DNA of 64,000 bases from Pegea sp. RAD2-039 (Eukaryota; Chordata; Thaliacea; Salpida; Salpidae): the NCBI GenBank assembly GCA_034620365.1, contig JAQGEQ010000363.1:2232001-2296000 (forward strand). Reading direction: 5' to 3'. The notes below the pieces were generated by a model. The model saw only the letters and a list, made by a program, of their open reading frames with translations. It did not search any database and was not told the origin of the DNA. Position 1 is the stretch's first letter; every line of letters starts with the position of its first letter. A program made the position numbers and the translations under genes. Positions 4,700 through 51,815 of this stretch are shown piece by piece.

Positions 4700-4754
4700 C
4701 TTCTTTTCTTGTGAAAGCTTGATAAAGAATTAATTCTGTAGTCAGATTGGAGAT

Positions 4755-13214: not shown

Positions 13215-13323
13215 TTGTGAAACAAGCACCAGTTTGCGAAGTACACATTTCAAACAAGCCACCTGTAAGTTGAACAAAGAGTTATAGTTTAAATCAGTAG
13301 CTAATTACAGAGTGTTTGCTTAC

Positions 13324-15701: not shown

Positions 15702-15756
15702 CTTCTTTTCTTGTGAAAGCTTGATAAAGAATTAATTCTGTAGTCAGATTGGAGAT

Positions 15757-15765
15757 CTTTTATAT
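15757..15765 (-). promoter_or_regulatory. TATA box (ATATAAAAG), secreted-protein gene B
   Basis: Identical to the element of copy A and at the same distance from the ATG. Confidence 0.6.
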
Positions 15766-19881: not shown

Positions 19882-20796
19882 CTGCAAATACAATAAAAAG
19901 ACTTTTAAACGACAAAGAACAAAATTAAAACATCTTTTTTATTTAAAAAAGTCATATAGTTTTTCACAACGATTACTACAGTATTGTAAAATCGGATTTT
20001 TACATTTGCACTTGATACATTCAAAATAGTTTCAAACTTTGTATAAAACGTAAAAATAATCATTATAAAGAGTAACCGCTAAAATAAAATCTTTGACAAA
20101 TTAAAGCTTTTCAAAAAAATCTTTAAAATATTCTTAGTTACTGTCAATAAACCCATAAAAATCTTAAACTTTTGATAACAACACAAAAAATAATACACAA
20201 AATGTTAAAGTTTCTAGTTTTTAAAGTTTTCTAAAATTTTCCATTTATTATATTTAATGGTGAATTATTACTATCATAAAATAATAAATTAGAAAACAAA
20301 TTAAATTGAAATAAATAAACATTTATTTATTGATTTTACGAAAATATTTTTCGTATGAATATTTATACAAACTGCTAACTGAATTAAAGTAAAAACATCG
20401 ATTCACTTGTAACTTGAAGAAAATCATTAAAAAGTTATCAAAACATTAGAGCTTGAAAGAAAATTTGAATTTAAATGCAGAGCTAATCATAAAACGTATA
20501 ACATTACAGCTTTTTAAATAACTTGAAATCTTTTACAGGCTTCCTTTTACTTATTGCTTGTTTCACAAACTTTTTAGTAGAAAGCCATAATTTCGAATAT
20601 TATATATAATATCGTGATATTTTTAAAAATAAATCTTCAGAAATCAATTTAGGTTTTAGATTAAAAAAGAGCTTTAAATTTACGATGTTTCTTTTAATTT
20701 ATTTATTTAACTTTTGTTAATTTGAGTTGATATTCAAATGAGTAGTTATTAATTGTATTGATTGTATTAATAGTGTATTGAAAAACTCAAAAATGA
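19882..20796. other. Region upstream of TERT main exon
   Basis: This should hold the missing first TERT exon(s) or promoter. I could not identify a coding exon with confidence. It is AT-rich sequence with two short minus-strand frames around 19.9-20.07 kb, neither ending in a phase-compatible donor. Confidence 0.4.
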
Positions 20797-26213: not shown

Positions 26214-29200
26214 TTAAAATCTCTTCTTCTGCAGGGAAGGAGGAGTCTTCTTCCAACATGCCGAGCTAGTTCGCTTTATATATCTTCCTTCAGTTTTATT
26301 AAACAGCTTTGTCAGATCAACCGATCTATTTTTAGTATTTCGTAAGATTGTAGCGATATTAGGAGGATGAATATGTTGCAAAAACATCTGGCGTTTCAAC
26401 AACTTTCCTGAAGCAGAAAAGTTGAAAATATTTCTAGAAAATAATCTCGAGTACCTTTCGCCCAATTAGGAACAGTTTTTCTGGGAGCATCTTCATCATC
26501 AGTACTATCATCTGAATTGAGATCATAGATATTGTAATCTTCATTAGTTGATGGAAGAAGTACTCGATCTTCATGTTTTGGTGTCATATCGTAGCTGCTG
26601 ATGTTTGATTCATCCTTTTACAAAACAACCAATCAAATGACGTCATTTCAATCAACTATAAGTTACCTTGTTGTAAGTTGTATTCATCTTTTCTTCTTTC
26701 TGTCGAAGTTCTTCTTCTCTTTTTGCTGATTCTTCTTCTCGCCTTTTCATTTCTTCTTTCTTCTTCATCAACATCACTTCTTCTTCTTTCTTCTTCTTCA
26801 AGATCCATCTTTCTTGTTGCTCTTGCGCCAGTCTCAACGCTTCCTCCTCCTTTTTCAATCTTTCTTCTTCCATCTTTAATCTTTCCGCTTCTTTTAACTT
26901 CTCTTCAGCTTCTTTTCTTTTCCGTTCAGCCATTTCCAGCTTCTTGGCTTCCATCATCAATGCACGTTCCTAAAATAAAAATTAACCAACCATCAGAAAC
27001 CGGGTAACAACCATCAAACACCAGCTAACAACCAGTAAACCATACATCAAACACCAGCTAACAACCAGTAAACCATCCATCAAACACCAACTAACAACCA
27101 GTAAACCAACCATCAAACACCAGCTAACAACCAGTAAACCAACCATCAAACACCAGCTAACAACCAGTAAACCATCCATCAAACACCAGCTAACAACCAG
27201 TAAACCATCCATCAAACACCAGCTAACAACCAGTAAACCATCCATCAAACACCAGCTAACAACCAGTAAACCATCCATCAAACACCAGCTAACACCAGTA
27301 AACCAACCATCAAACACCAGCTAACAACCAGTAAACCAACCATCAAACACCAGCTAACAACCAGTAAACCAACCATCAAACACCAGCTAACAACTAGTAA
27401 ACCAACCATCAAACACCAGCTAACAACCAGTAAACCAACCACCAAACACCACCAAACACCAGCTAACATCCATCAAACACCAGCTAACAACCAGCTAACA
27501 ACCAGTAAACCATCCATCAAACACCAGCTAACAACCAGTAAACCAACCATCAAACACCAGCTAACAACCAGTAAACCAACCATCAAACACCAGCTAACAA
27601 CCAGTAAACCAACCATCAAACACCAGCTAACAACCAGTAAACCATCCATCAAACACCAGCTAACAACTAGTAAAGCAACCATCAAACACCAGCTAACAAC
27701 CAGTAAACCATCCATCAAACACCAGCTAACAACTAGTAAACCAACCATCAAACACCAGCTAACAACCAGTAAACCATCCATCAAACACCAGCTAACAACC
27801 AGTAAACCATCCATCAAACACCAGCTAACAACCAGTAAACCAACCAACAAACACCAGCTAACAACCATCAAACACCAACAAACACCAACTAACAACCAGT
27901 AAATAATTTTCTGACCTGCATTTTCTTCATTTGTTTTTCTCTCTGTTCTTGACGAGCTTGCAATCTTCGCGCTTTATCTAATCGCGCTTGTTCGCGTTTT
28001 TCTGCCATCTTCATCAGCTCATCTTTTATCTGCTCTTCTTTTATTCGCTTTTGTTCTAATTTCTACAAAATCGAGAAGTTTAATGACGTCATCGGCTACT
28101 ACGTCACACCTTTTCATCAGCTTCTATTTTAGCGCGTTTCGTTTCTTCTTTTTGATCGGGTCCTTTTCGCTTCTTTTTAGCCGATTCCAACATTCGTTTC
28201 CTTTCTTCAAATCTCACCTATACTACATCATTATCATCGCGCGTCTTATGACGTCATCAAACCTTTTGCTCCTCCTCTTTGAGATTTTTCTTTTGAAGTT
28301 CTTCAGCGCGCTTCTGATCATTCAACTCGCGATTTTTGTTACACTTTTTGAAACGCTCGGCGCGTCGCCTAGCAACAACAGGGTCAGCGATACGAAGTCA
28401 ACGATGACGTCATCGACGCACTGTTTGGCTTCGGCGATAGCGCGCTGCTTGTCTTCTTCAATTTGCTTCTTCACTGCAGCCTGCCTCTTCGCCTTCTCTT
28501 CCAGTAGTCGCGCTTTCTGTTCCGCTTTGCTCTGTGACGTCATCAGTGGTGATCTTGTCACGTGATTACAACAAATTACAATTTGAGGTTTCTCTGGAGT
28601 GTTGCGTTGAACAAACGATCGGATGATGTTGCTATTTGCAGCTGCTGTCTGACGATCGACTATTCGAACAGAAGTGGCGGAAGTTGGAGTCGCGGGAAGC
28701 CGCCGAAGTCTGCTTTGACCAGTCGAACGGTTCAAGAACGACAATGTGCTTCGCGGCTTTGTGTTGCTACTGGCCGGAGTTAGACATTTGCGTTGAGTCT
28801 TCTTAATTGGAGTGATGTAGCCCTGTACCGGATGAAGTTAGTTGATGAAGATGAAGAGATGATACTTCCCGAGAGAATTTGATTCCCGCGTAAAAAAGTT
28901 GTCTAAAATTTCGCGCCAAAATCAGCCAATTAGCAAATACTTACTCCTTTAGATGTGTAACCACGTACTGGAGTTCCCTGTAAAGAGTGGTAGTTAGTTG
29001 TGACGTCATCAGATGACGACATATCTCACTATTTGCATGCTGTTCGAGTTCTTCCTCAATTTGAGATTTTTGCGAGCTTAAAAAATAAAGATCAGATATA
29101 TTTGGTGATAAAAAAGATTAAAATACAAACATCCAGCAACTGGAGGCTTCTTCTTAGATTTAGGGATCACTTTTTTGAATGTTGAAGTGCTTGGAGTGTC

Positions 29201-32086
29201 TTGACCCACAAATGGTCGATTCTGGGGCACTTGACCTTGGTCCTGGACCGCTTCAGAAACGACTGAAATAATCTATTTGATTAAAGAAATAAAATTTGAG
29301 AAAATACCATTTTTGTTGTCATCTTCATCATCAGAAGTTTGATATTCATCGATCTCATCTTCCTACAAATAAATGAGATGAAGAAGTTGAAAGAGTAGAA
29401 GAAGATGATCTTCACCTTGATGATCTTCATATTCGCTCTTCCTCGAGCTACTGATGCTTTTACTCGATTCTTATCAATTGAAATCTGTTTTTTTGCAGCC
29501 AAACCTAAAAGATGTTGAAGAAAATCAAAATTTAAATCCTTGGAAGTAGAAGAGGAGGAGAGAGTCGCCAAGAATCTACAAATTAGGAAGAAGATCAGTT
29601 TAAAGATGCTTGCTCACCAGAAAGTTTTCTTTTCGATTTTCGTGAGCTTCTTCGAGCTTGCTTTGCAGCAGATCTAGTGATTAAAAAAGAAGACTGAAGC
29701 GAGTTGATTAGAGGAAGAAAAGATGTAGAAAGTTCAACTCGTTAAGCAAACTTGCTTTCATGATTATAAAATGTCAGATTCAAGTAGATAAAGTGACAAA
29801 AACTGACCTCCTGGGTAGAGATGTTTCCTCAACTTCCAAATATTCCTGCAATGAAAATTTAGAAATGATGAAGATATAAGATTGAAGATCAACTCACTGG
29901 AGGAACTCTATATTGGCGAGAAGACTCAACATAACATACATTGTTTTTTGTCATATCCACAAATACTTTTCTGTTAACCATATCCTTCATCTTCACTGAA
30001 AAGTATTCACAGTAAGATGAACTAGTTCTTACAAGAGAATAATTATTGAAGTAGTAAAAGGTTTTAAATCTCACAGAACTTTGTAACATTTTTTTAATAA
30101 ACATTTTGAATTTACTTCAGCTCAAACATATCAACTTTTTCTTACTTCGATCAACAATAGATTTAATAGTTTCTTTCCTAGAAGACTTCAATAAAACAGT
30201 TCTTCTTTTATCATGATCATCATCAGATAGATGGAATGAAGAGTCATTAAGGTCATCATCATCAGAAGAAGTATCCATAGCAACATCGTCCTTAAAAGAT
30301 GAACGTAAATCTTCCTTTTGGAGTTTATCTCGGGAACTTTTGTCTTTTGTAGAAGGATCAGTTGAAACAATAGCTTCATCAGTATGTAAAGATAAATCTT
30401 CTTCTTTATCAGAGTCAACTGAATCTTCTCTAGTACCAGGAGCTTCAGAGACTTTATCTTCTTCAACAGGATCAACAGAATCATCTCTAATTTCAGGCAA
30501 TTCTATGATTTGATCTTCTTCAACAGAATCAATTGAATCTTCTCTAGTAACAGGATCTTCAGAGACTTTATCTTCTTCAACAAGATCAACTAAATCTTCT
30601 CTAATTTCAGGCAATTCTATGATTTGATCTTCAACAGAATCAACTGAATCTTCTCTAGTATCAGGAGCTTCAGAGACTTTATCTTCTTCAACAGGATCAA
30701 CTGAATCTTCTCTAGTAACAAGATCTACAGAGACTTTATCTTCTTTATCAGCCTCTTCTTCGAGAAGTATGGATGAAACATCTTGAGGTAGAATCGAGAT
30801 ATAATCATTTCTTATCAGAGTACTATTGGCAATATTACGTTTCTTCGAAACTGGTGAATCCTTTAAAACATTGAAAGTATAATCAAAATATTTCAAATAT
30901 ATTTAACTGAAACATGTCAAAATAAACATTCTTACTTTTTCTCTTCCAACTTTATTCTTTCCAACTTTATTCTTTCCAGCTTTATTTTTTCTTCTTCTGG
31001 ACTTCGTACTAACACAAAAAGAATTTAAAATAATAAATCATTGAACAATCAACTAATTTAGAAAAAAAAATTGAGTAAAAATATTTTATTATATTTATTA
31101 TTCATAATTATTATAATATTTAAGCATAAAAATAAAAGCTATAAAAAATTGTTTCAACTTTTAATAATTATTTCTTTTATTTTCAACTCTACATTAACAA
31201 ATGAAAAAGAGATATATAATGAAATTACTTAGTGTCTTGAAAATCTTCATCACTTTCAATCAGACGTCTTATTTGAGAAGTGAAGTTTGAGCTACTGGCT
31301 ACACTTGTATAAAGTTCATTGTTTTCATTTCTATCATAATCATAAAAGATTGAATGATGATTACTTAGTTCAAATTTAAAAACCAAATTGAATATAAGAT
31401 ACAAAAGTTTTGATGCTGTTTGATAAGCTAAGATTATTATAAAGTTTATAGAGCTACCAAATTTAAAAAGAAACATCAACTCACAAAACTGTTCTCTTTC
31501 TTTTACATCTTCTTGGTTTTCCAGGAGTTTTACAAATAGGTTTACTCAACATCACCTCGTCAGTATTCTCCAAGAGTTCCTCCTCATTTGTTGTGATATT
31601 TTGCTCTAAAAGTTCTTCTTTTGTTCTCACAATTAACCCTCTCTTGATTCTATCAATAAATAACAATCAAACTCACAACAGTAACTTAACTAACTATTTA
31701 CAATTCTTTTGTTTTATCAGCATATAATGCTCTCAAATCAATAAGAGCTTTCTCTCTTGCTCTATATATATCATCAAAAGCCTCAGGATATATAAGAGTA
31801 TCTCTCAAGGAGCATTCTGAGGGTTGATACAAGACTCCCTGATGAGGATCAAACTCTCTAGAAAGTAAAATGTAAATGTTTAAAAACAAAATAAAATTTA
31901 AACGAAAAACTTTGAAAGTTTAAAATAGAAATGTTTTTAAGACTAATAATAATAAAACAAATTATAGGAATGATATGAAAAGATGAATACTAACTTGAAA
32001 ACTAGTTGATAATGTTCCAACTTATAACAATTTTCTCTAGTTTTCCATAAACCAATAGCAAGTCCTTTCTTTGGACCACGTGGCAT
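26214..32086 (-). CDS. INCENP: Inner centromere protein (about 1073 aa, ~22 exons)
   Basis: INCENP scaffolds the chromosomal passenger complex and activates Aurora B through its C-terminal IN-box. Exons from the start: 32086-31995, 31857-31702, 31649-31485, 31330-31229, 31008-30936, 30860-30146, 29995-29898, 29845-29808, 29673-29618, 29504-29416, 29362-29308, 29262-29131, 29076-29030 (doubtful), 28977-28945, 28822-28580, 28531-28422, 28368-28263, 28217-28110, 28062-27916, 26969-26667, 26614-26455, 26407-26214. Exon 6 encodes acidic tandem repeats (EEDKVSEAP, TREDSVDSV, IIELPEIR). Exons 16-20 form a long charged helix rich in Glu, Lys and Arg, matching the SAH/microtubule-binding region. The C-terminus has DLNSDDSTDDEDAPRK, PNWAKG, HIHPPNI and GRYIKRTSSACW. 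The last carries the TSS site that Aurora B phosphorylates in known INCENPs. The basic KTPGKPRRCKRKR segment near residue 130 resembles the human N-terminal region. The first exons are the least certain. Confidence 0.92.
26985..27903. repeat. 33-bp minisatellite in INCENP intron
   Basis: About 28 copies of a unit like CAACCAGTAAACCATCCATC plus AAACACCAGCTAA fill the intron between exons 19 and 20. Because 33 is a multiple of three, the minus strand reads as an open GLLVVSWCLMV repeat. This is a by-product of the repeat, as flanking splice sites and phase place it in an intron. Confidence 0.95.
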
Positions 32087-33129
32087 TTTTAAACCTTTTA
32101 AAAAATTAAAACTTTAACAACAAACCTGTTAATAACCTAAAAATGAAAATGTTACAATCAAAGCTCTACTTGAGAAACTGTTCAAACTTGACAAAAGCTA
32201 AAATAGAACAAAAATTAGAAATAAAAATGATTTTTATAATTTATTTATAAATAGATAAAATTTAATATATTAAAATGTAAATTAGATTTTTTAAAATATG
32301 AAAAAATTGATGAAATAGTAACTTCATTAGAATAATAAATAAACAGAAATAAAAATTAAATAAATAAATTAGTTTTCACATCATTTAAAAAATGTTTAAT
32401 TATGGAAATTTAAAAAATAAAAATATAATAGATAATAAATTCATAAAAATTGAATTAAAATAATATCAAAGATAAAAATAAAAAAAATGTAAGAAACAAC
32501 TCACTAAATTATATAATATAAAAAGTTTTATATATAATAAAAAGTAATTAGCGAATTCTTTAAAATTGTTAGAACAAAAAATAAAAATAAAAAATAAAAT
32601 TGTATCAAAAAAGAGATTTAAATAAAAAAAATCTTTTTTTCACAATAAAAAAAATATTTAATATAAAAATAGAATAATCGTTTATAAAACCTTAAAATTT
32701 TAATAGAAAAATTTCTAGGAAAAAAAATATAAATAACTTGAAATTTTATTGTATGAAAAATCTAACTTTATCTAATAATAAAAAACTACTTTAAAAATTC
32801 TTTAAAATTGTTGATACAAATCATGAAAAAATCGATTAAAAATAGATTTTAATTTAGAAAATAATTAAAATTGGTTTATCGCAATGAAACATATAAAAAA
32901 AAATCATCTTATTAAATGTAGTAAGCGATAGAAGTAGAATTTAAATAACCCGGGTTTATTAGAAAATAATAACAAACTTTTCAGTATTCGATCTTCAACT
33001 TTAAACTAATATTCTAATTAAATTGAAATATTGTAGAAATTTTTAATCTTAGTACTTTATTGCATAAGCTATTATACTAAATTTCAAAATATATAACATA
33101 AAACAAACGTTTCATACGTCTTCTGAAAG
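32087..33129. other. Extremely AT-rich region upstream of INCENP
   Basis: Mostly A and T with homopolymer runs and no gene. It must contain the INCENP promoter unless further 5' exons exist. Confidence 0.55.
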
Positions 33130-33832
33130 AGTCTACTTTCATTCAAGATCTGACAGAAGTCTTTTCAATGCATCACGTCTAAAGACGATCACCAATCTAT
33201 GAGCTACTTTTTGCCGATGACGCAGTAATTGTTGCACATTCAGCAAAATAACTAAAGATGCTGATAGACCTATTTTTATCAGCCTGCACAGGCTTTGGAA
33301 TGAAAATCAGCCTAAAAAAGACAAAAGTTCTCAGCCAAGGTGTTAACGCTCCACAGCCAATCAACATCGAAAGCTGGGACGTTGAGGCTGTAGATAATCA
33401 CATCATCAGTATCAATAGAAGCCGAGATCAGCAGCTACATCAGTAAAGCATCTGGTGCATTTTCATGTTTTACTTCAAGGGTTTGGAATAATCCAAAGCT
33501 ATCTATCAAAATCAAGGCCGCCATCTATAGAACCTTTGTCTGATGTACAATATTGTACGCAAGCGAAACTTAGACTTTGTCGAAGGAAAATAAACACAAA
33601 ATCTTTCATTTTCGGTAAATATCAATAGCAATTGGGAGTATATCGCTCCAAATAGCGCTCTCCACAAACAACAGAAAGAGAAAGAAAAAATAGATTCAAA
33701 GAAAAGGAAAAACCCTAAAAACTTTTAGCTTCTTTGGATTTCACTGTGTTTTGCTTTGCTTTTAATGATGCATGACCGTTCTCGGTAGAAGCAGGTCATT
33801 ATTATTAAAGAAAGAAAGTAAATAGAGCTCTT
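33130..33832 (+). mobile_element. Second LINE family, RT fragment (FADD box), broken
   Basis: The frames read LLFADDAVIVAHSAK, then LIDLFLSACTGFGMKISLKKTKVLSQ, then FTSRVWNNPKLSIKIKAAIYRTF, with stops and frameshifts between them. The order (FADD box, ISLKKT, TSRVW, IKAAIYR) is typical of the RT C-terminal half of non-LTR elements other than the YADD-type family above. A possible 3' end with inverted repeat TGACC/GGTCA near 33771-33797 and a TTATTATTAAAGAAAG tail follows. It is non-functional. Confidence 0.75.
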
Positions 33833-35169
33833 CAAATCATGAACCTTTCTTCACCTTATAAGAGAAATTACAAGCCTCTCCTGATTAGTAAGTAAAAAGT
33901 CCCATCAATATCTGCGACGACTTTGCATTTGTTCGAAGCGGAAGTTCTATCATAGGTCTCAACCGTTTCAAATCGAGTTTAACTTGATTTCTTTTCAAAT
34001 AACAACTCAAGAAACAAATCTGGTTTAATCCATGTATTGTTTTGGACTTGTTTACAGTCATTTTCCTGTCTCTGATCGATTTTTAAAAACTTGTAAAAAG
34101 CTGCAGTTCATTCAAAGAATTGGGTCTAATAATGTCACTGCCAAATATTTCAAATATTCTTGAGCTGATCCTTTTTCTATAAATTCAGTCATTATCCTTT
34201 AAAATACTACAAGTAGAGTTGCATTAAACTGTAATAACGCCCAGACTTAAAAGTCATAAACTTCTTATCTTTCTTTCGAGTCTTCAGAATTTTTCTTCCA
34301 GTGACGCCATTTATAGCTGCAGACGGACTATTTAGTAAAATTTATTTACAATAAGCAATTTAAGAAACTAAGTAACAGGCAGCAATTTGCAGAAAAAAAG
34401 TTTAAAAATTAAATTGTAACTCTTTAACAGAGCTTTACACCATTATAACTGGAGCGCCGCATTGACTTTAATTAACCCTAAAATAAAACTGTAGACAAAA
34501 CAGTAAGATTTTAAATAACTAATTAGAGCTTTATAATGACATTTACGTATGTGGTATTGTAGGGTAATCTTTTTTAGATATCTCATTACTTTCCGTACAT
34601 TTAAAACTAAAACAAGTTTCATTGTTTCAATCGTATCTTTAAATGTTTGCTTTATGTGAATTAATACTTGATCTTTTTCAAAAGATTTAGTCTAATGATA
34701 AGTAGAAAAATATCTTTAGTTTGAACTGAGATGAACTTTAAATTATTGACTACATATATTTCAAATTATTAAACAAGTTTTGAGTACCGTTTAAAAGTAA
34801 ATTTACAATAAATAGAAAAATGTATTGTTTATTTGTAATAATGTGTTTAAGTGTAAATTGAGATGAGAAACTATTCCTTATAAGTTCCACAAACCTCATT
34901 ATAAGATTTTATTTGCTACTGGCTGCTGCTGTGATATCTGCGTGGATGTGAAGACTCTGAATTGTCTATAAGTAGGATCGCAACTGCGGCTTCAAAATAT
35001 CATCTTTCCCTACTATCACTTATAAGACTTTTAGAGATGCATTTTAGCAAACTTTCATGCAGTAATTGAAAGATTAAAAGTTTGGTAAGATCAATGTTTT
35101 TATTTTATGCAATTTATTCAAATACTTTTTGTTTGATTTATTACAGCATATATCATTTGAAAGTCGGGA
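33833..35169. other. Intergenic, possible old repeat debris
   Basis: No gene is recognised. Base composition is less extreme than in neighbouring gaps around 33.9-34.3 kb and 34.9-35.0 kb, suggesting decayed inserted sequence, but no identifiable domain remains. Confidence 0.4.
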
Positions 35170-35325
35170 ATTCTATTCCAACATTGTCATTTCTAAACTT
35201 TGAATTTTTCTCTTTCTTATATTATTAACATTCCATGTAATTGTTCACTGTTATATGCTTTGAGGGCTATCGAAATACTATTTGACATCTTTTCTAATTT
35301 TTCGCTGTATTATAATAAAAGAAAC
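35170..35325 (+). mobile_element. LINE 3' UTR fragment
   Basis: Matches the 3' UTR of the YADD-type LINE copies (AACATTGTCATTTC, then CTCTTTCTTATATTATTAAC, then GTTATATGCTTTGAGG). The terminal stem-loop is missing. Confidence 0.75.
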
Positions 35326-36290
35326 TTTTCAAATAGTCGTTGGTTTCTCAGAAACTGGATTCGAAATGTTAACTGAGTCTCACAAGCAAGTCAGAAAAAT
35401 GCAGAAAATTTTATAAATTTGTTAAAATCCAAAAGTTTGACAGTTCTATAAGAAAAAAGATATTTTGAAACATCAAAATTCTTTTTCTTCAAATCTTCCC
35501 TCTCATCTTACAAATGGTTTGCGACTAGCATTAAATTTGTTGAGGTCCATGGATAATATTAGGACTAGAGGTGGTTTTGAGGCTATGGTCATGATTTATT
35601 CAATGATGTTGAAATGCTTCTAAACTTTATTCTTAAATCTGAACTGGGCTCTAAAGAGAGCTTCTTTAACTGTAGAAGACACAACAATCCTGCAAACATT
35701 AATCGGGAGAAGAGTTAGTTTTTGTGCTTTAAGTAGCTGGATTCATTCTGAGTACTGAGCGAATGTTCCAAGGTCTTCACAGTAAAGTATCATATAGGGG
35801 TTTCCCCGACAACACCAGTAGGTTTATCATATTTGAACTAGCTGATTGCTTTCTCCTCATTTCTTTAATCATTTGTCGTTTGGAATAAGAAGGAATATAT
35901 GTGGCAGACTGCGCGCTGAAAAGTGATGAGATCAACATTAAGTAAGTTTCCGAAGAGGTTTAAACGATGAACGAAACCACCCTTTGAATAATGAATAAAA
36001 CCTTCGGTGGTTACAAGTGTCTGCTTGCAACTGGCTTTTCTTAGCAAGCTTATTCTACCAGGGGTTCTACATCATTAGAATTCCCGTGGTAAGGGACACG
36101 TGGTACGAAATGTTTCTTTGTCAGTGGACAATTTGACCTGGTGGTCATTTCTTTGCTGGTTCAAACTTCTCGGGCGTTTGCGTCAAACCAAATCTTTAAT
36201 GTTATTGACAAGACGAAGTTTTGTGTAATAATTTTAGCAAAGTAAAAAAGTAATCTCTTAACGGGCCTTAAAAAAAATAAAAAAAGAACA
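35326..36290. other. Intergenic, no gene assigned
   Basis: Short open frames only. The 60-codon minus frame at 35865-36047 has mixed composition and sits among likely repeat debris, so I do not call it. The last 20 bp hold the T-run terminator of the tRNA pair. Confidence 0.4.
36270..36285 (-). terminator. Pol III terminator of the tRNA pair
   Basis: On the minus strand, two T-runs lie within about 5-20 bp of the tRNA-Ala 3' end. No T4 run occurs between the two tRNAs. Confidence 0.6.
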
Positions 36291-36362
36291 TGGAGATGCC
36301 GGGGATCGAACCCGGGGCCTCACACATGCAAAGCGTGCGCTCTACCACTGAGCTACATCCCC
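36291..36362 (-). tRNA. tRNA-Ala (TGC)
   Basis: The gene is 72 nt. The acceptor stem GGGGATG pairs with CATCTCC (one G-U), the discriminator is A, and the anticodon loop TTTGCAT reads alanine GCA codons. The A box (TAGCTCAGTGG) and B box (GGTTCGATCCC) are intact. No intron; CCA is not encoded. Confidence 0.97.
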
Positions 36363-36366
36363 ACTA

Positions 36367-36448
36367 CGACGAGGATGGGATTCGAACCCACGCGTGCAGA
36401 GCACAATGGATTAGCAGTCCATCGCCTTAACCACTCGGCCACCTCGTC
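36367..36448 (-). tRNA. tRNA-Ser (GCT)
   Basis: The gene is 82 nt with a type II long variable arm. The acceptor GACGAGG pairs with CCTCGTC, the discriminator is G as in serine tRNAs, and the anticodon GCT lies in loop CTGCTAA. The B box GGTTCGAATCC is intact. Only 4 bp separate its 3' end from tRNA-Ala, which is downstream in transcription. Confidence 0.97.
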
Positions 36449-37293
36449 GCTTCAGAAAGTTGATTTAAGTTTTATTTCAACCTAAATTTGACATTGACTT
36501 TTACAAGAGACAATTTTTTGATGTTTTTTAGAGAATATTTTTAAAATATCAATATTTCGAATGAGGTGGTGTCACCATTAACAAGATGGATGCTCAAAAA
36601 ATCACTTTCAAGAACTCAATTCCTAATTCTCAACATAAATTTACATCAAGCTGTTATTTGATTCAAAATCTGATTGAAATTTCAACTTGAAAAAAATTTG
36701 AGTTGCATCTACTTGTCGTGAGATCAGCAAACAATTCCATTGACATCTAGATGAGCTAACTTGCTAATAAGTCTTTGATGTGCCTCAAAAGATCCGTTTG
36801 CTTGATAGTTTGTCGAGGATGTAGTAAATATTATATTTTTATTACTTTGCTGAAGGTAAAAAATTTGATAAAGATACAATTACTTGAAGTTTCTATATTT
36901 TTCTAATTTAACATGAATCTAATGATTTTATTTAATTATTCCTCTAAGGAGATTTAAACAGGTTGATGGCGAGGTTTACAAATATTGATGAAAGCAAGTG
37001 GCGACTGAAGCACCTTAAATTAAGGAGCCGACTTTTAAATAATCAGACAAAATTGAAAAGTTGGAAATTTAATAATTTAAAAGACAAATAAATATCTTCG
37101 CTTATTTGTATAGTTCACATATTCACTGTTGATGACGTCATACAGGATGAAAAATGAAAAAAAAGATCAATAAAGAAGCTAGATAGAGAAGCGATGACGT
37201 CACAAAGCTGTCAATCAAGTCTTTGCATAGAGCAGCTTTACCTTTAGGTGATAGTAAGTGCAAAAAGAATAAAGAAACGCGATTTTTGTGACG
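36449..37293. other. Flippase 3' UTR and intergenic
   Basis: AT-rich, no coding region. The right-hand 170 bp hold three TGACGTCA palindromes and should be the 3' UTR of the flippase gene. Confidence 0.5.
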
Positions 37294-40200
37294 TCATACA
37301 TGTGGTTGGTCACGCGTTGATGACGTCATAGAAGATTCCGATGCCCATGCATCCATTTTCGGCTTTGGTGGTGACGTTTTAGTAATGACGTCATCATAAG
37401 TAACATCACGTGACTGGTATAGTGCTGACGTAGTACTAGGGCGATTAGGAAGCGGCGGTGACGTCATCGAAGTGACGTCATCATCGATGTTGTTTGAAAA
37501 CGAAAGATTGTCGTGACCGGTTGCTGATGACGTATTTGAGTCTCTAATTACGTCATCAGCAGTAGAGTTGTTGTTGTTGCTGTTGTTAGTGGATGACGTC
37601 ATCTGACGATCGAAGAGGTGTTGAGGTCGAGGAATGAAGTCATCAGTGAAAAGTGGATTTTTGAAAGTTGGAGGTTTCGATCCTGAATTTCTGAAAGATG
37701 AGGATCTCTTGGATGTTGAAGATCTCTTGGATGCTGCTGGTTTATTGGATGATCTTTCGGATGCAGAAGATCTTTCCTTTTGACGTTCACGTTGACATTC
37801 CGTTGGAAAAAGATCAGTTTGAAGAGATCGAATCACAAATCTGTAACAACAAGATCAGATGATGTCTCCTGGATGCTGCTGTTACCTTGGCAACAAAGCA
37901 ACGATCGTCGTGATGATGATGGAGAACCAGAAGGTTGGAGTTTGGATGACTCGCTCCATGACGTAATAAGGATTACTGGGAGGAAGACAAGCCGGACATA
38001 TGATGTTGTAGATGAGAGCAAACGCAAAGAAACCAACTAAACTCAAACACTGTCCAGTCCAATGTATCCACGTCTGTACATGATATGACGTCATCAAGCA
38101 AGCAGTGACGTCATCAGCACTTACCCAGGTCTTGGTTTCGATTGCCAGGTGCAGAAGAATGACAAATACGGAGCAAGTCGTCACCACAGTTCCCCATTCG
38201 ATCAAACCAACATCAGAATCAAAGTACGCCTGCAAGCATAAGAAGCGCTCACGTGACTGCTTCACGTTCATGACGTCATACCGCGTAGATGAAGAAAAAG
38301 ATGATAAGACTTTGATAGATGGCATCAGCGATGTTGATCCAGAAGCTTCTCGGTCGGTAGATCTGTAAGCGTGACGTCATCAGTGATTTAATGATGACGT
38401 CATCAGTAGTCTCACCTCATCTTCCACTCCTTGTTTGTAGAGATGAGGTTTTTGTAGAAGAGTATCTGATCTGAGATCTTTATCAAAGACTCCGTTGACG
38501 AGAGGAGGAAATCCGGTGATTGTAAGATTGAAGAGGAGAAGATACATTTGCTCAATCATGTTTGATCCGGAGAAACCACAAAGAAGTTGGAACCAGAAGA
38601 TGAGGAAGACAAAAGCCTGCATCAGAGGATGAAGATCAGGAGATGAAGATCAGGTGATGAAAATCAGATGATGAAGATCAGAGGATCAAGATCAGAGGAT
38701 CAAGATCAGAGGATCAAGATCAGAGGATCAAGATCAGAGGATCAAGATCAGGTGATGAAGATCAAGGGATGAAGATCAGAGGATCAAGATCAGAGGATCA
38801 AGATCAGTGGATAAAGATCAGATGATGAAGATCAGATGATGAAGATCAGATGATGATCAGAGGATAAAGATCAGAGGATCAAGATCAAGGGATAAAGATC
38901 AGATGATGAAGATCAGGGGATGAAGATCAGAGGATGAAGATCAGAGGATGAAGATCAGGGGATCAAGATCAGGGGATAAAGATCAGAGGATGAAGATCAG
39001 GTGATGAAGATCAGATGATCAAGATCAGAGGATCAAGATCAGGGGATAAAGATCAGAGGATCAAGATCGGGGGATCAAGATCAGGGGATAAAGATCAGAG
39101 GATCAAGATCAGAGGATCAAGATCAGGGGATCAAGATCAGAGGATCAAGATCAGGTGATGAAGATCAAGGGATGAAGATCAGAGGATCAAGATCAGAGGA
39201 TCAAGATCAGGTGATGAAGATCAAGGGATGAAGATCAGGGAGATGTTCCAACTAACCGCGTTTTTATAGAAGAAATACAAAACCATGGAAGCGAGACGCG
39301 CGTAATTCCAATGTCCGTGAACCAATAGAAGTTTACGAAGAAATCGAAATTGCGCGATCGCGTAATCGCTGCTCATCACAGCTTGCATCCCTTCCTGACC
39401 ACTCAATCCAATTCCAACATCCGCGACTTGTATCATACTGACGTCATTAGCACCATCACCTACGTCATCATCAACGTCATCAACTACTCACAACATCATC
39501 ACGCCACCTACCGATCGCTAACGTCATCACGTGTAGCTGATCGCGAATCAACTTGACGACTTCACCTTTCTGTAGCGGTGTTGCCCGGCAACAAAGCACC
39601 GAGCGACATTTACGAGCAAGTCTCACAAACTTCTGATGTAGATCCTTCTGTAGCGCGAAGCCAAGCGTTCGTCCATCAATGACAAGCACTACAATGGAAT
39701 GATGACGTCATGACGACGCGAAAACGCGATTGAACTGACCTAGAGCAGGAAGTGAGTTATCAGCGAGTGATGAATAGGAGGTAGGTTTCAGTGAAAGATG
39801 TCTCATCACAAAACTGATCCTTGAATCCTCATCTTTTCCTCTTCTCTCTTCTTGATGCTTTATGTGAGTATCTAACAACTTCTCAAATGACTCCTGTAAC
39901 CAACCATTAAATCGCGCTGTTGCTAAGCGACACTGATGACGTCACACCTTATTTTCTGACGTCAGCACGATGACTTCATCATGTTGATGTATTAGACGAC
40001 AAGAGTAACCGATATTAACCGCCGTTTCCTGTTTGTCGCCGGTCACCACCCAAACTTGCATCCCTGCCTGCCTCAGCGACTCAATAGTCTCTGGGACTCC
40101 TTCCTGCAACCGATCTTCGATTCCAGTTGCCCCTAGCAACTCGAAATTCGTCTCGATGCGTTGAAACGATTCCATCAGCTTTTGTTCGCGGTTTTCGAGC

Positions 40201-43200
40201 GCGCTTTCTGCTTGGCGGTGTTGTTCCAACCAAGTCAGATACTCCTCTTCACTCAGCACCTGAACAACCATCATTAGTGACGTCACAAACGCGTGAAACA
40301 TCGCCACTAACTCGCTTAGCCATACAAAGAGTACGAAGTCCCTGATGAGCGTATTGGTTGAGAGCTTTCTTAGTTCGTGAAATCACTTCCGGTGAGTTGC
40401 TCTCTAAACGCGAAAGATCGCCACCAGGAGGCGCTGTAAGAAGGCAGATGACGTCATCGCTTTTATGTGAAGTCATCGAACCTCTCTGGTTGTCGCTAGA
40501 GGGCGCGAGAAGTGACAAGATCGCGGAATCGGCGCCTTTCGAATAAATGATAATCTGTTTCCGGCGAAGATCCCTCACCACTACTGACATCCGCTTCCGG
40601 TTTGAATCAAATGTGAGTGTGTGTAGCACCTGTGAATACGCGTTGATGACGTCATCACAACATGTAGAGACTCACTTGAAATTGAATATTATGATTGTGA
40701 GGTGATAATGAAAGAGTGACAGTTTCTTGGGACCCTTGGATACTACGATGAGCAAGGACACATCCGTAAGCGCGCGCTGCATACACGAGAGCTGCTTCAT
40801 CTGGTGATTCAGCTTCGTATCTAATCTCTTCTTCCTCATTTCTTTCAACCGATGTCTTCCTATCATTTAAATCAACATCTGTTTGCTGAGTTGTGACGTC
40901 ATACGTTTTAATAGCGACGTCACTGGGAGAATTAAATGAGCGGCAATTGGGAGCATCATCCGTGGTAGGAGTGGTTCGAGGTGAAAGGTCAAACATCGAA
41001 GTCAATTTGTAAGTTCCTAACTTGCGCTGAAATTAAACAAATTGCTATAATCGCTACTAGGTAACAAATAAATAGTTGCTAGGTAACAAATATATGGTTG
41101 CTAGGTAACAAATACAAAGTTGCTAGGTAACAAATACATAGTTGCTAGGTAACAAATACAAAGTTGCTAGGTAACAAATAAATAGTTGCTAGGTAACAAA
41201 TATATAGTTGCTAGGTAACAAATACATAGTTGCTAGGTAACAAATACAAAGTTGCTAGGTAACAAATACATAGTTGTTAGGTAACAAATACATAGTTGCT
41301 AGGTAACAAATAAATAGTTCCTAGGTAACAAATACATAGTTACTAGGTAACAAATACATAGTTGCTAGGTAACAAATAAATAGTTGCTAGGTAACAAATA
41401 AATAGTTGCTAGCTAACAAATAAATAGCTACTAGGTAACAAATACATAGTTGCTAGGTAACAAATAAATAGTTGCTAGGTAACAAATAAATAGTTACTAG
41501 GTAACAAATACATAGTTGCTAGGTAACAAATAAATAGTTGCTAGGTAACAAATACATAGTTACTAGGTAACAAATACATAGTTGCTAGGTAACAAATAAA
41601 TAGTTGCTAGGTAACAAATACAAAGTTGCTAGGTAACAAATACATAGTAGCTAAATAACAAATAAATAGTTGCTAGGTAACAAATACATAGTTGTTAGGT
41701 AACAAATAAATAGTTGCTAGTTAACAAATATATAGTTGCTAGGTAACAAATACATAGTTGCTAGGTAACAAATAAATAGTTGCTAGGTAACAAATACATA
41801 GTTACTAGGTAACAAATACATAGTTGCTAGGTAACAAATAAATAGTTGCTAGGTAACAAATACAAAGTTGCTAGGTAACAAATACATAGTAGCTAAATAA
41901 CAAATAAATAGTTGCTAGGTAACAAATACATAGTTGTTAGGTAACAAATAAATAGTTGCTAGTTAACAAATATATAGTTGCTAGGTAACAAATACATAGT
42001 TGCTAGGTAACAAATAAATAGTTGCTAGGTAACAAATACATAGTTACTAGGTAACAAATACATAGTTGCTAGGTAACAAATAAATAGTTGCTAGGTAACA
42101 AATACAAAGTTGCTAGGTAACAAATACATAGTAGCTAAATAACAAATAAATAGTTGCTAGGTAACAAATACATAGTTGTTAGGTAACAAATAAATAGTTG
42201 CTAGTTAACAAATATATAGTTGCTAGGTAACAAATACATAGTTGCTAGGTAACAAATAAATAGTTGCTAGGTAACAAATACATAGTTACTAGGTAACAAA
42301 TACATAGTTGCTAGGTAACAAATAAATAGTTGCTAGGTAACAAATAAATAGTTGCTAGCTAACAAATAAATAGCTACTAGGTAACAGATATACAGTTGCC
42401 AGGCTAATTCCTAAATATCTAGCAAGCAAAGAATATTTTTTCTAAAAGTGAATAGCCAAATTCATGCAAATTAAATTTTTTTTTACTTTAATCAATTGAC
42501 TGACGTTGGTCAAAGGTGTACTTGGAGTCGAAGAAAGTTTTTGCTAAAACAATAAAAGGAATTGCTAAGCTGCACTAAAAGCTCATTTAAAAGCTAATAA
42601 TTAATGAAAAATTAACACTAAGATTAACAAAAATACATCTACAAACAGATACATCTACAAACAAATACATCTACAAACAGATACATTTACAAACAAACAC
42701 ATCTACAAACAGATACATCTACAAACAGACACATCTACCAACAGACACATCTACAAGCAGGTACATCCACAAACAGATACATCTACAAACAGATACAACT
42801 ACAAAAAGATACATCTACAAACAAACGCATCTACAAATAGATACATCTACAAACAGATACATCTACAAACAGATACATCTACAAACAGACACATCTACAA
42901 GCAGATACATCTACAAACAGATACATCTACAAACAGACACATCTACAAGCAGATACATCTACAAACATGTACATCTACAAACAGATACATCTACAAACAG
43001 ATACATCTACAAACAGATACATCTACAAACAAATACATCTACAAACAGATACATTTACAAACAAACACATCTACAAACAGATACATCTACAAACAGACAC
43101 ATCTACCAACAGACACATCTACAAGCAGATACATCTACAAACAGATACATCTACAAACAGATACAACTACAAAAAGATACATCTACAAACAAACACATCT

Positions 43201-46200
43201 ACAAATAGATACATCTACAAACAGATACATCTACAAACAGATACATCTACAAACAAACACATCTACAAACAGATATATCTACAAACAGATACAACTACAA
43301 ACAGATACATCTACAAACAAACACATCTACAAACAGATACATCTACAAACAAATAAATCGACAAACAGATACATCTACAAACAGACACATCTACAAGCAG
43401 ATACATCTACAAACAAATACATCTACAAACAGATACATCTACAAACAGACACATCTACAAACAGATACATCTACAAACAGATACATCTACAAACAGATAC
43501 ATCTACAAACAAATACATCTACAAACAAATACATCTACAAACAGATACATCTACAAGCAGATACATCTACAAACAGATATATCCACAAACAGATACATCC
43601 ACAAACAGATATATCTACAAACAGATACATCTACAAGCAGATACATCTACAAGCAGATACATCTACAAACAAATACATCTACAAGCAGATACATCTACAA
43701 GCTACAAGCAAATATTGAAAAAAGCTCACATCAACTTCGGGCTTCTGGTTATGATCTTCATTTGAAAGTACTACAGTGTTACAAATTGCCAAGTTGATAA
43801 AGAAATCTAAAACTCTGCGTTTCTCTTTACTAAGTTCAAATGAAATATCATTTGGTATTTCAGACATCGTCGAAGTAGCAATCATCTTGGACGGAATACT
43901 CGCTAGATGTCGATAAAGAACAGGATCAGGTGTGACGTCAGTCGCCTTCATAACATAAGATGATGATGACGTCACAACAAGCATCACTTACTAGATCTTC
44001 AATAGCGAGATCGACAGTATCATCATCATTACCATGTTCATTTGCATTTGTCGCGTGAACTTCACGAGCAGACACAATACTCATATTACGACGATGATGT
44101 GAAGCTGGTCTTTTTGTACTCACCTGTCACACAACAACGTTATCGGTTGTCATGGCAACCGATGAAAACAAAAACCGGCGTAGATAAAATTTAAGATTTA
44201 TTTGTAAATACAAAATATGATGTCATCGTTGACATCACGATGTTTATGACGTCATCACTAACTCGATGTGCTCTGATGGGTAAAGCTGGTGAGTTTGGAA
44301 GTGATTTAGAACCTATTTGGACTCCACCATTTGCTTCTTTCATTGATTCTTCCTGATCTCGATGTTGATTTGATGACGTCACAGCATGACTAGAAGGTCT
44401 AGTGAAGATACGCATTAGTGATGACGTCATCAGTAGTACAAATCACCTCTGACGCAATGATGAACGACGTGATCTTCTCTTTTCATTCAAACTTCTGCGA
44501 CTCAAACTATCCAGGTGATTTGGATCTAAAAGATTTAAATACAAGACGAACCAATTAACTTAGCAACTAATCAACTTAGCAACCAATCAACTTAACAACC
44601 AATCAACTTAGCAACCAATCAGCTTAGCAACCAATTAACTTAGCAACCAATCAACTTAGCAACCAATCAACTTAGCAACCAATCAGCTTAGCAACCAATT
44701 AACTTAGCAACCAATCAACTTAGCAACCAATCAACTTAGCAACCAATCAACTTAGCAACCAATCAACTTAGCAACCAATCAACTTAGCAACCAATCAACT
44801 TAGCAACCAATCAACTTAGCAACCAATCAACTTAGCAACCAATTAACTTAGCAACCAATCAACTTAGCAACGAATCAACTTAGCAACCAACCTGGATGCA
44901 TCGACGCAGGAGTTGGTTCGCAATTTTCGATACGAGCAGCTAGAAATGATAAATTTATCAAACTCACATCATCAAGTTGTCATAGCAACCAACCATTAGC
45001 AGCATGTGGGTAATCTTGACCACCAACAGTACATCTTTTAAAAACCATTTTATTTTCAGTTAAGGTTCCAGTTTTATCGGAGAAAACATATTGAATCTGC
45101 CCCAGGTCCTCAGGTATATTTAAGGCACGACAAACCATGGGTGTATTTGATTCATGATGATATAATTCGATGTCGTTGTTGATCATGTACACTTGTGCCC
45201 ACTTGACCACCTCTATTGACACATATAAGCTGATTGGGATGAGGACCTGGGATCAATTGATTAGATGGATGAAGGGGATGAGGACACTTACTTGAAGTAG
45301 AATGACCATGGTCCAAAACATGAAAAAGCCAGAAAGGGCCGGGTCCACTGTGTTTCCTGAAGTGTCACGTGGTATGAAGAGTTCTGTTTGTGGTACAGAA
45401 GCTTTAATTCCAGCCCAGATTCCATTTCCTGAATAAAATCAAGATATTTTTAACAAGTTTGAAAATTTGATGTAATTTCTGAGTAAAAAGTTTGTGAAAT
45501 GGAATAATTAACGACAAAGTTACCTATTGCGCCAATTAAACACATGATTATCAACATGGCCACACAATAGATGATATCTTTGTTCATCTGTCTTTCTAAT
45601 TTACTTCGTTTATATCTGAAAAGTTTAATATTTAACTGAAGTTTGAAAAACCATAAATTTTGTGGCTCAACATTTAATTAAAGATAAGAATTTTTTACAT
45701 AAAAGTCATAAAAAACAATTAATTAAAATCTAAATTACTTTAACTATTATTTTAGATTTATTAATAAATTTATTTCAATTAATTTCCTTTTTTTTTTAAT
45801 TATAAATTTGGTTTATTTTTTTTATAATAAAAAAATTTAAAATTTGAAAAAGTTTTAAACATTTTTTAATTTGAAAAAATAGTGAAATAATTGAAAGTTT
45901 TCAAATGAAAGTTGATTTCTTCAAATAAGTAATAAAAATTTGAAAATTAATTTCGAAAATGGACTTGAACCTTGGTCCGTTGTTATTCAACATAGCCTTG
46001 GTTTCATGACCAGCATAAACCACTATTCCCTCAACGTAATCCGTGTTCCTGATCACGCATCCTCTAAGGAGCAGATTGAGATTGTTTACAGGGATTTTAT
46101 CATCTCCATCAGGAGGGATTCTGTAGATGAAGAGTGAAGATGTGAACTTCTGATGTTGGAATTAAAATAAAAAGAAATTTTTTTGTGAGAAACAAACTGA

Positions 46201-49200
46201 GAAGTTGAAGCAACAAAAATAGAACAAATAAAACGTGGAAAGATGGAAATATGGGCTAAAGTTGAGATGACGTTAAAGTTTGGCTTATAAACCTGATTAA
46301 TTATTAACTAAAATAAAAGATTTTGTAATTGCTTTTACACTTGCTTCTAAATTATTGATCAAAATTTGGTGTTTTGAAAGTTGTTACATTTTAAAAACAA
46401 AATGAAACATAAAATGTGTTTAATCACGTGATTAGAAGACATAAAATTGATGAGAAGATATCAAGATGAGACTCAAGGATTTAAAAATTGACGGAAAAAT
46501 TTAAAAAATGTCTTTTTAATTTCAACTAAAAATTAAAAACTTTACAAAAATCAAAAAATTTTGGAATCACTGAAGCAGAAACGACCAATCAGAAGCAGAG
46601 ATTGATAAAAACGAGAAGTAGGCTTACATGTTGCCATGGAATTTGTAGATTTCATTGTTAGGTGTTTGGCATTCGATGATGCTTTTAAATTTCTCAGGAC
46701 TGAAGTTCTCCTTCTATAAAATGACGACGTCATCAGTGACGAAATCGAAACGTAAATAAAAACAGCGCCACCTGGTGATAATCTCCGTGTCTTTTGACGA
46801 CAACTCTTTGCTTTAAATTGCTCTCTCCATCAATGTTTGAAGTCTCAATGAAACAGACTCCGTGATGATCCGAGGAGTGAAGAAGAAGAAGATCTGCTGG
46901 GATTATGGAGTTACAAGTGACCCGGACAATGTCCCCGACTTGCAGTTGGGACCAGCGGACTTTGTGGTACTTTTCATCTGAACTATGAAAGGATTTGAAG
47001 ATTAGAGAAGTTTATAGAAGTTGTTTGAATAATATTTGTTTTTCTTTTATGATTCAGTTTAGGTTTTGGGGTTTGGTTTCATTGAAAAGTTTCCAAATTT
47101 CAATTTTATGAAATAGATTTTGAAATTTATTTAAATTTTAAACTAAAACTTTTACGCGGAACTTCTTTTTCTGTTTAAATATTTAGCTAAAAATTGTTGA
47201 GTTTCACTTGTTAAAAATCAAAAGAAATAATTTTGATCGAGACGTCTTTACACTTGAAAATTGTGTTTTCACGCTAAGTGTTTCCAAGCAAAAAATATAA
47301 AATTTCGTAAAAAAGCTTTTAAGCTCTAAGCTCTTAAATTTGTTGTTTTAATATTTTTCCTTTAACTGCTGAAAATAAAACTACACTTGAAAAAAATCCC
47401 TTCCTAAAATACTTTTCAAATTTGATGCCTTGACAGCAAAAAATGTAATTTCTGCAAACTCCTACCACCAGCCAATCACGTGACTAATACCTGGAGTAAA
47501 TTTCGCAAGCAGCACCATTAACTTCGCCATCATTTCGTCTTCTTCCATAATCTTCAAATAAATCTTTAATAGCTTGAACAGCTAAGATACAAATAACGGG
47601 AATCATAGACACAAACGGTTGTATAGCACTAATTTGTGGAACAAAGTTTAGGAGGATTATAAAAACAAAGTAGATATTAGCAAATCTGTGAAACTGTTCA
47701 AAAAGATTCTTTGGTAGGAACGATAAGGCCGTGTATTTGGTGGTTTGGATTCGATTTTTTGCATAGGAGTTTTGTAGCTTTTTAATTTGTTTTAACTTTT
47801 CATTTGCATCTACAATTGAATCGCTACTTAAAAGGAGATTTGAGCATAAGGTTCTAACTTTGTGTTCACTTCGTATTCGTCTGAAACAAGAGATATATTA
47901 GTATTAGATCGATTAACAAAAGGTGTCATGCGTTACAATTTACAATTTATTACTTACTCAATTCCATAAAGAAAGCTTTTAAATAATAGACAATAGAATA
48001 AGCTTATTTGTGTTTGTTTAAGGTTAGATATTACTAAAGATATATGTAACAGAAGAATTGCTATGAAAGGTTTGAAGATATGAATTTTGATTTTATAATA
48101 GAACATATGATTAGAACAAAAAATTAGGAATTTTATGTATTTATTGAAGAGTCTTTTTACTGTTTCAAACTTTCATTGTCTAGAAAATAATTAAAGTAGA
48201 AAGAGGAACTTTGGTTAATATTTAACTTTAAAAAAACAACAGTGAACTTTACAAGCAGTTAATCAAAGGGAACTAAAAATTAGAAACTAAAAAAAGAAAC
48301 TCTGAAGTAAATATGGAAATTTTCTCACCTTTTTTTAAAATGTAATAAATCTTGAAAAGCAGTTGATTTTCTAAAACTAGAGTGAGCTATACCATCTGAA
48401 ATTTGAACTTCGACTTGATCATAATAATTATTTTCTGATGAAGTCTCAACATTTTCATTTAAAGCAGGAGTGTTCATTATTAAAAAAATTATAAAAGTTT
48501 GGGAATAAATTAAACTTCCACAATGACAAAAAAGTTGTTAAAAAGTTCTGTAATATAAATACTTCTAAACTTTCTACCTTCTCATTGACTATTAAAAAGA
48601 GTTTTTTTTAATATAGTTTTAATTTTATCATTTTCTAACTCCATAGATTATCAGATAAAATATTAAAACTTTCAAAATATGTCATAAAAATCAAACAATT
48701 TGGAAATTAATTTTGATTACCATCAATATAAAACAAACAATTTACCAACAATATAAAACAAACAATTCACCAACAATATAAAACAAACAATTCACCAACA
48801 ATATAAAACAAACAATTTACCAACAATATAAAACAAACAATTCACCAACAAAAATAGAAAAGTTGATTTGGAAAAGAAGCTATCTTATAAAAAGATCATC
48901 AGACTTGAGGTAAATTGATATTTGATAAAATGATGAAAATTTGCTGATACAATATATTAATTAATCATAATATTTAAATAGTTATGACTATTTAATAAAA
49001 AGACAAAAATAAAATAGCTTTTTGTTTTTTTTAGCTTTTAAAATGATGTAAGATTAAACAATTAACTTTATGATCAAGAATTTGGATTATTTAGCAAATA
49101 TTTAAAATAGTTATATTTTTAAAGTTGACAGAAAAAAAAAACTAATATACAAGTAGTTTATTTATTTAGTGACTAAAATAGAAATCAAAATCATAAAACA

Positions 49201-51750: not shown

Positions 51751-51815
51751 TTTACTTAACAAACTCTCTATAAAATAAATATTGTAAAAAATTTTATATT
51801 TTTATTTAGCTTGTT

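Follow-up and report, generated by a model that had tools for sequence, protein, structure and literature searches.

The octamer TGACGTCA, which is identical to the canonical cyclic AMP response element (CRE, the CREB/ATF site), occurs 27,792 times in the 105.7 Mb genome assembly of the salp Pegea sp. RAD2-039, compared to 969 occurrences of its reversed word (~29×), and 32 times in the 64-kb stretch analyzed here (C21:2232001–2296000, hereafter the window). The exactness and symmetry of the word, its additive flanks, the specificity of its spacing, and the co-enrichment of other binding words point toward protein-bound DNA being under selection or drive. As a specific explanation, we tentatively favor one that we hold to be plausible but far from assured, namely that the copies are ATF/CREB-type basic leucine zipper (bZIP) sites in CpG-rich gene segments, where they would be kept exact by selection on binding. 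The main rival is self-favoring gene conversion, which fits the exon-blind spread of the copies and their GC- and minisatellite-rich setting about as well. Throughout, pattern counts span the whole assembly, and statements about introns, exons, and codons rest on sequence-only gene models and on 12 and 30 small stretches of this one genome.

Abundance and Exactness of the Octamer

Exact counting places the first window copy at 26638 and the last at 44422–44429, in agreement with the original prediction of 32 copies between 26.6 and 44.4 kb in excess of base composition: 100 dinucleotide-preserving shuffles of the window contain a mean of 0.60 copies, and at most 3. All 32 lie within the 3′ parts (including just past the stop codon) of two genes, encoding INCENP and a P4-ATPase flippase, such that the predicted confinement to these genes holds inside the window, but not genome-wide, where the copies number in the tens of thousands. 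The mean density of the genome is 263 per Mb, compared to 500 per Mb in the window, and twelve 10-kb stretches chosen irrespective of the motif contain 8 copies in 120 kb. The same density everywhere, which had been put forward as the counter-case, is not what we observe: among the first 100 listed copies on contig C1, 38% of the gaps are shorter than 1 kb vs 6% expected, with a coefficient of variation of 1.61. These data support the view that the motif has been multiplied or maintained, across introns and exons, above what composition yields. We found no report of such an expansion in an animal in the titles and abstracts searched, a literature that leaves most subscription journals and preprints outside.

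An origin in base composition, tandem repeats, or a general over-representation of palindromes is scarcely credible. Copy-rich windows are GC- and CpG-rich, and a few rare GC-rich palindromes are indeed raised (AGCGCGCT, 4 copies, 17.6×; ACGTACGT, 5 copies, 9.6×), as is the rare class with six G/C as a whole (1.96×, 26 vs 13.3). However, the own dinucleotides of the 20 short introns in the 3′ parts of the two genes predict 0.11 copies, compared to the 19 present, and so do not explain the excess in full; the anagram palindrome AGTCGACT, with the same letters and a central CG, occurs 694 times genome-wide (its reversed word TCAGCTGA occurs 2,917 times); and the well-counted palindromic 8-mers lie near expectation, at observed/expected ratios of 1.16× for those with no G/C, 0.97× for those with two, and 1.03× for those with four when TGACGTCA and TCACGTGA are left out. 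Composition and palindrome content are therefore refuted as a correction, and, as other palindromes are near expectation, the suggestion that the octamer is kept up for its palindromic form as such is left unsupported.

The excess is also sharply limited to the exact word. Genome-wide, the 24 words with one mismatch total 37,125, or 1,547 each, vs 1,154 each for the neighbors of the control word, although this ratio is rough in that the control word lacks a CpG, and the words TGAC[A/C/T]TCA sum to 10,744 (control 5,470), compared to the 27,792 exact copies. Within the 14.6 kb that remain of 26.0–44.5 kb when minisatellites are excluded, 32 exact copies stand against 11 one-letter-off words (12 classes). 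Across three sets, the second of which was selected for having copies, the exact word is raised 162×, 67×, and 13×, and its neighbors 0–6.4×, with counts of at most 12. Similarly, 140 of the 304 CGTCA half-sites in 231 kb belong to full palindromes, and 43 to words one letter off.

A neutral equilibrium of birth and decay was rejected, since by our derivation it predicts a ratio of derivatives to exact copies of ~8/7, whereas the excesses found are ~9,400 and ~26,800, respectively. As the one-mismatch excess falls so far under the exact excess, this leaves either upkeep of the copies or a recent expansion. A young burst, in which the octamer was recently spread by some event and is now decaying neutrally, would be compatible with these two figures at a derived neutral divergence of a few per cent; we nevertheless regard it as decidedly improbable, as 70 copies share no common flank beyond three bases and no dispersed repeat family carries copies, such that no vehicle for a burst is seen. 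A mobile element was likewise rejected: past position 3, the flanks of the 70 copies are nearly flat, with frequencies near background, and self-comparison (alignments >150 bp) gave one copy-bearing duplication only. An inverted duplication of ~620 bp with 93.7% identity links C1:308253–311782 and C1:331973–337561, and the octamer is kept in both arms.

An exact 8-bp palindrome that lies genome-wide far above expectation, in coding DNA too (10 of the window copies), is a likeness to HIP1 (GCGATCGC) of cyanobacteria, which is also present in coding DNA. For HIP1, a methylation-dependent mismatch-repair model has been proposed (PMC4390886). A bias of this kind, in which a modification or mismatch-repair system turns near-matches into the octamer and protects it, would accommodate both the over-representation in coding and noncoding DNA and the fact that solely the exact word is high, yet we consider it quite improbable: it accounts for exactness but leaves the clustering unexplained, and it does not predict that unrelated words should be raised too. 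The present case further differs from HIP1 in that the host is an animal, and in density (a mean of 263 per Mb, where high-frequency HIP-type words reach ~500–2,500 per Mb; PMC4390886).

Flanks, Spacing, and Co-Enriched Words

In 125 of the 140 arms of the 70 copies, the first base outside the octamer is a pyrimidine (T or C), with mainly C and then A beyond it, giving TGATGACGTCATCA. The two arms behave independently: TCA is present in both, one, or neither arm of 6, 27, and 37 copies, compared to 5.4, 28.1, and 36.4 under independence (calculated by hand), and the 14-mer TGATGACGTCATCA occurs 1,972 times genome-wide, vs 0 for its reversed word, where independent arms predict 2,163 (also by hand). 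Judged from the letters, additive, symmetric half-sites of this kind are what a dimeric DNA-binding protein would be expected to read. bZIP proteins have a purine/pyrimidine flank preference, and TGATGACGTCATCA resembles motifs determined in vitro for ATF7, JDP2, and BATF3; among the papers listed by a search for these strings, none prints them. Binding of JUN-ATF3 to the CRE depends partly on the flanking bases (PMC5349851). The AP-1 site TGACTCA is scarcely raised genome-wide (5,592 vs 4,779, 1.17×), which indicates that the 8-bp spacing matters, and the AP-1 (TRE) spacing was therefore rejected. The original prediction had set the CREB/ATF identity of the octamer aside; in light of the symmetric flanks, the independent arms, and the lack of an excess at AP-1 spacing, it is this reading that now looks best.

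Other binding words are raised as well. The word TCACGTGA, which we take to be an E-box of the USF/MITF type, occurs 4,614 times vs 237 for its reversed word (19.5×), and is found in TGACGTCA clusters, for example, at C1:23089 and C1:1210069–1212797. Two presumably RFX-type words, GTTGCNNNGCAAC and GTTRCCWNRGNAAC, reach 518 vs 18 (29×) in the case of the former, and 284 vs 30 forward and 285 vs 16 reverse (9–18×) in the case of the latter, with a smaller excess for the ETS word CCGGAAGT (793 vs 285, 2.8×). bZIP_1 domains are encoded in the genome, with 12 exon matches.

If the copies are binding sites, each TGACGTCA would be bound by an ATF/CREB-type bZIP dimer that reads the 8-bp CRE, and this binding is predicted to hold CpG-rich stretches of genes open, with chromatin opening, intragenic enhancers, or both as candidate roles of the patches. 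Such patches would need many strong sites; selection acting on binding would then keep the octamer exact, and most copies would be carried by the short introns as presumably the least constrained DNA of these stretches. The salp would thereby possess ideal CREB/ATF sites by the tens of thousands, in clusters that extend across introns and exons. It would offer a natural experiment on how dense intragenic sites affect chromatin, splicing, and transcription, and would also bear on how vertebrates came to limit CREs to promoters. The exact core and the symmetric flanks with apparently independent half-sites are as in known CREs. Where this genome differs is in the sheer number of exact copies, their clusters in gene bodies and exons, and the weaker variants being little raised. 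For comparison, PMC1796609 describes Ciona CREs as lacking promoter bias, unlike those of vertebrates, and canonical CREs in the human genome as present at 25% of the expected number.

Placement in Genes and Local Composition

Gene models were derived from codon usage and splice sites, and were corrected where short in-frame introns had been read through; in the INCENP model, the minisatellite at 26987–27903 is partly mis-modeled as exons, and in the automatic flippase model, some exons are wrong around 46.2–46.8 kb and 42.5–42.8 kb. By these models, 19 copies are intronic (the assignments of those at 29001 and 40449 depend on weak splice boundaries), 10 are coding, 1 (at 37289) overlaps a predicted stop codon, and the remaining 2 are beyond the stop in the presumed 3′ untranslated region (UTR). 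This matches the predicted occurrence in short introns, the 3′ UTR, and coding exons, including that of two copies in the 53-bp intron 38415–38363 (at 38372 and 38395). In the 3′ parts of both genes, 17 of the 20 short introns (1,147 bp) carry the 19 copies and 4,294 bp of coding sequence carry 10, with 0 in three long minisatellite introns. The 5′ parts of both genes have 0 octamers in 16 introns (2,105 bp), and a few ill-defined introns outside this count are also copy-free. A near-copy, TGATGACGTCGTCA, lies on the minus strand at 46722–46735, in a probable intron of the otherwise octamer-free 5′ part of the flippase gene. Intron GC is 0.23 in the 5′ parts vs 0.41 in the 3′ parts (motif excluded), and the GC content at third codon positions (GC3) of INCENP increases from 0.20 to 0.40 toward the 3′ part (ambiguous exons left out).

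An element acting at the RNA level, be it a pre-mRNA splicing signal or a hairpin for very short introns, would fit the frequency of copies in the short 3′-part introns, as well as the folding z-score of −4.3 of one two-copy intron. We consider this very improbable, as copy placement within introns is uniform (Kolmogorov–Smirnov p 0.56) and the arms show no strand asymmetry (12 vs 9 of 32, p 0.60), which together favor recognition at the DNA level. Furthermore, the other five of the 6 copy-bearing introns folded (out of 17) gave z-scores of +0.1 to −2.7, and neither the coding copies nor the 16 copy-free 5′-part introns are in line with such an element. The pre-mRNA hairpin that had been suggested thus receives little support.

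Copy-bearing models use GAC-GTC for 29 of their 70 Asp-Val pairs, where 3.9 would be expected, and ACG-TCA for 21 of their 103 Thr-Ser pairs, where 4.3 would be; for the window genes by themselves, the corresponding figures are 9 of 18 and 10 of 33. Although this codon-pair excess is real, it carries little weight as evidence: the other models were mostly picked for having a copy, and read-through introns are present in some. Outside the window, a kinesin motor (GDVI) and Arp3 (DDVI) also contain copies. Amino-acid change at the Arp3 copy (VVDDVI) is uninformative, as the same residues are present in two Clavelina sequences, and avoidance of the frame with an in-frame TGA was dropped, since the models cannot contain internal stops. 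Among the best 120 of 4,921 listed matches, a 367-residue Arp3 model from C1 shares 91% identity with Clavelina lepadiformis, a tunicate, and 97–100% with environmental proteins, whereas by E-value the first match is a longer Timema record (81% identity across 84% of the query); this single protein makes a tunicate source likely. A search for COX1 returned nothing.

To describe local composition, 177 of the 184 1-kb windows in the 64-kb window and the twelve stretches were used, with repeats and the motif masked (7 were dropped for having too little unmasked sequence). Those with at least two copies (n = 7) have a mean GC of 0.427 and a CpG observed/expected ratio of 1.09, compared to 0.277 and 0.67 for copy-free ones (n = 163), and minisatellites take up 24% of the surrounding 5 kb, compared to 2%. 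The CpG ratio, the raised GC, and the CRE and E-box words resemble CpG islands, within which 62% of surveyed human canonical CREs lie (PMC1796609). However, the definition of these islands (≥200 bp, GC >50%, high CpG observed/expected ratio) does not cover stretches with a GC of 0.43, and in the two window genes these stretches are in the 3′ parts and not at the 5′ ends.

The INCENP and flippase intron minisatellites at 27008–27903, 38621–39238, and 44549–44890 (33, 14, and 16 bp) lie in or adjoin the octamer-bearing 3′ parts, and a search of all three found 0 octamers. A further flippase intron holds a 61-copy minisatellite (41057–42403) with the 22-bp unit CTAGGTAACAAATACATAGTTG, that is, GTTGCTAGGTAAC repeated, which presumably resembles the RFX X-box. 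Arrays of a near-identical 16-bp unit, ATACATCTACAAACAG, are found ~8 kb apart at 42633–43700 and 51819–55196 (67 and 211 copies).

Self-favoring gene conversion would have a heterozygous octamer copied more often than lost, such that it accumulates in recombination-rich stretches with no benefit to the organism; a bound bZIP might, for instance, protect the chromatid it sits on against breakage. We rate this as somewhat unlikely, although several observations are in its favor: the copies are sharply exact and span exon/intron boundaries, and even with the motif set aside, copy-rich windows have raised GC and lie close to minisatellites, as would be expected of recombination-rich DNA. A precedent for a role in recombination is the CRE-like M26 word ATGACGT of fission yeast, which is read by the ATF/CREB dimer Atf1-Pcr1, is active in a coding region, and lifts meiotic recombination ~20-fold within ade6 (PMC6827382); most arms here extend to this heptamer, 89 of the 140 having the required T. 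However, M26 stimulates breaks, which is the opposite sign and by our reasoning should erode the motif, and it is known from engineered or single break-promoting sites, compared to tens of thousands of copies known here from the genome sequence. In addition, TCACGTGA and the RFX-like words are raised too, such that several motifs would need the same conversion property. If conversion is nevertheless at work, a short exact motif would be accumulating nonadaptively in an animal, strongly enough to mark codons. A bolder version, which we deem unlikely, is that an animal genome has its own version of the highly iterated palindromes of bacteria: a CRE octamer would both propagate and maintain itself across gene bodies by conversion biased toward the allele with bZIP bound, and would thereby alter introns, synonymous codons, and disordered protein tails.

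Returning to selection on bZIP binding, several observations weigh against it. First, 27,792 sites are many for selection to hold singly. Second, the weaker CRE variants (TGATGTCA = TGACATCA), which CREB also binds (PMC1796609), are raised just 1.6–3.1× in the three sets, where a stronger rise might be expected of a process driven by binding. Third, the copies occupy the interiors of genes and their coding exons, with none of the 32 at the 5′ end of either modeled gene, as opposed to the promoter-proximal position of vertebrate CREs. Copy-rich DNA is also raised in triplet words (GCAGCAGC, 25×, 11 copies; GAAGAAGA, 8×; others, 5–16×). Finally, with respect to CpG-rich segments, 6 of the 7 1-kb windows with at least two copies come from this 64-kb window, copy-bearing windows of the twelve stretches alone (n = 6) have a GC of 0.332 vs 0.276 (p 0.03), and the GC3 of the flippase increases only from 0.36 to 0.39 (ambiguous exons left out).

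Coordinates and Neighboring Features

Table 1. Positions in the window of the two octamer-bearing genes and of the 32 exact copies, with the gene context of each
Feature	Position	Strand	Context
INCENP gene	26214..32086	−	Pfam PF03941, E 9.7e-10 (hand-edited model); copies only in 3′ part, 26638–29008
P4-ATPase (flippase) gene	37294..48477	−	PDB 6lcp, E 2.8e-195; copies only in or just past 3′ part, 37133–44429
TGACGTCA	26638..26645		INCENP intron 26615–26666
TGACGTCA	28084..28091		INCENP intron 28063–28109
TGACGTCA	28249..28256		INCENP intron 28218–28262
TGACGTCA	28405..28412		INCENP intron 28369–28421
TGACGTCA	28535..28542		INCENP intron 28532–28579 (48 bp, in frame, read through by automatic model); adjoins acceptor; CACGTG also there
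TGACGTCA	29001..29008		probable INCENP intron (weak boundaries)
TGACGTCA	37133..37140		beyond predicted flippase stop, presumed 3′ UTR
TGACGTCA	37195..37202		beyond predicted flippase stop, presumed 3′ UTR
TGACGTCA	37289..37296		provides predicted flippase stop codon TGA
TGACGTCA	37321..37328		coding, flippase C-terminal tail (MTSS)
TGACGTCA	37386..37393		coding, flippase C-terminal tail (YDDVI)
TGACGTCA	37459..37466		coding, flippase C-terminal tail (SMTSP)
TGACGTCA	37473..37480		coding, flippase C-terminal tail (DDDVT)
TGACGTCA	37594..37601		coding, flippase C-terminal tail (QMTSS)
TGACGTCA	38086..38093		flippase intron 38074–38124 (51 bp, two copies)
TGACGTCA	38106..38113		flippase intron 38074–38124, second copy
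TGACGTCA	38271..38278		flippase intron 38230–38281; TCACGTGA in same intron
TGACGTCA	38372..38379		flippase intron 38363–38415 (53 bp, two copies)
TGACGTCA	38395..38402		flippase intron 38363–38415, second copy; inside TGATGACGTCATCA
TGACGTCA	39439..39446		coding, flippase 10-residue peptide, presumably the P-type ATPase hinge
TGACGTCA	39703..39710		flippase intron 39689–39739
TGACGTCA	39937..39944		flippase intron 39894–39947
TGACGTCA	39957..39964		coding, flippase (VLTSEN)
TGACGTCA	40278..40285		flippase intron 40260–40311
TGACGTCA	40449..40456		possible flippase intron 40434–40481 (weak donor); else coding
TGACGTCA	40647..40654		flippase intron 40630–40675; inside TGATGACGTCATCA
TGACGTCA	40894..40901		coding, flippase linker (TYDVTT)
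TGACGTCA	43933..43940		coding, flippase (ATDVTP)
TGACGTCA	43967..43974		flippase intron 43946–43991
TGACGTCA	44247..44254		flippase intron 44124–44262; GTTGCCATGACAAC in same intron
TGACGTCA	44374..44381		coding, flippase linker (AVTSS)
TGACGTCA	44422..44429		flippase intron 44399–44446; inside TGATGACGTCATCA

Just upstream of the flippase gene, at 51088–51801 (minus strand), visual inspection suggests an N-terminal exon belonging to another P4-ATPase, which is without octamers. Between INCENP and the flippase, tRNA-Ala (tgc) and tRNA-Ser (gct) genes lie 2 bp apart at 36290–36449 (minus strand). The window also holds a direct duplication of ~3.5 kb with 96.7% identity (2095–5571 and 13073–16574), as well as a telomerase reverse transcriptase in a single open frame of 769 aa (17595–19904, minus strand; PF12009, PF00078), for which a protein query returned just two weak relatives, the best at 23% identity.

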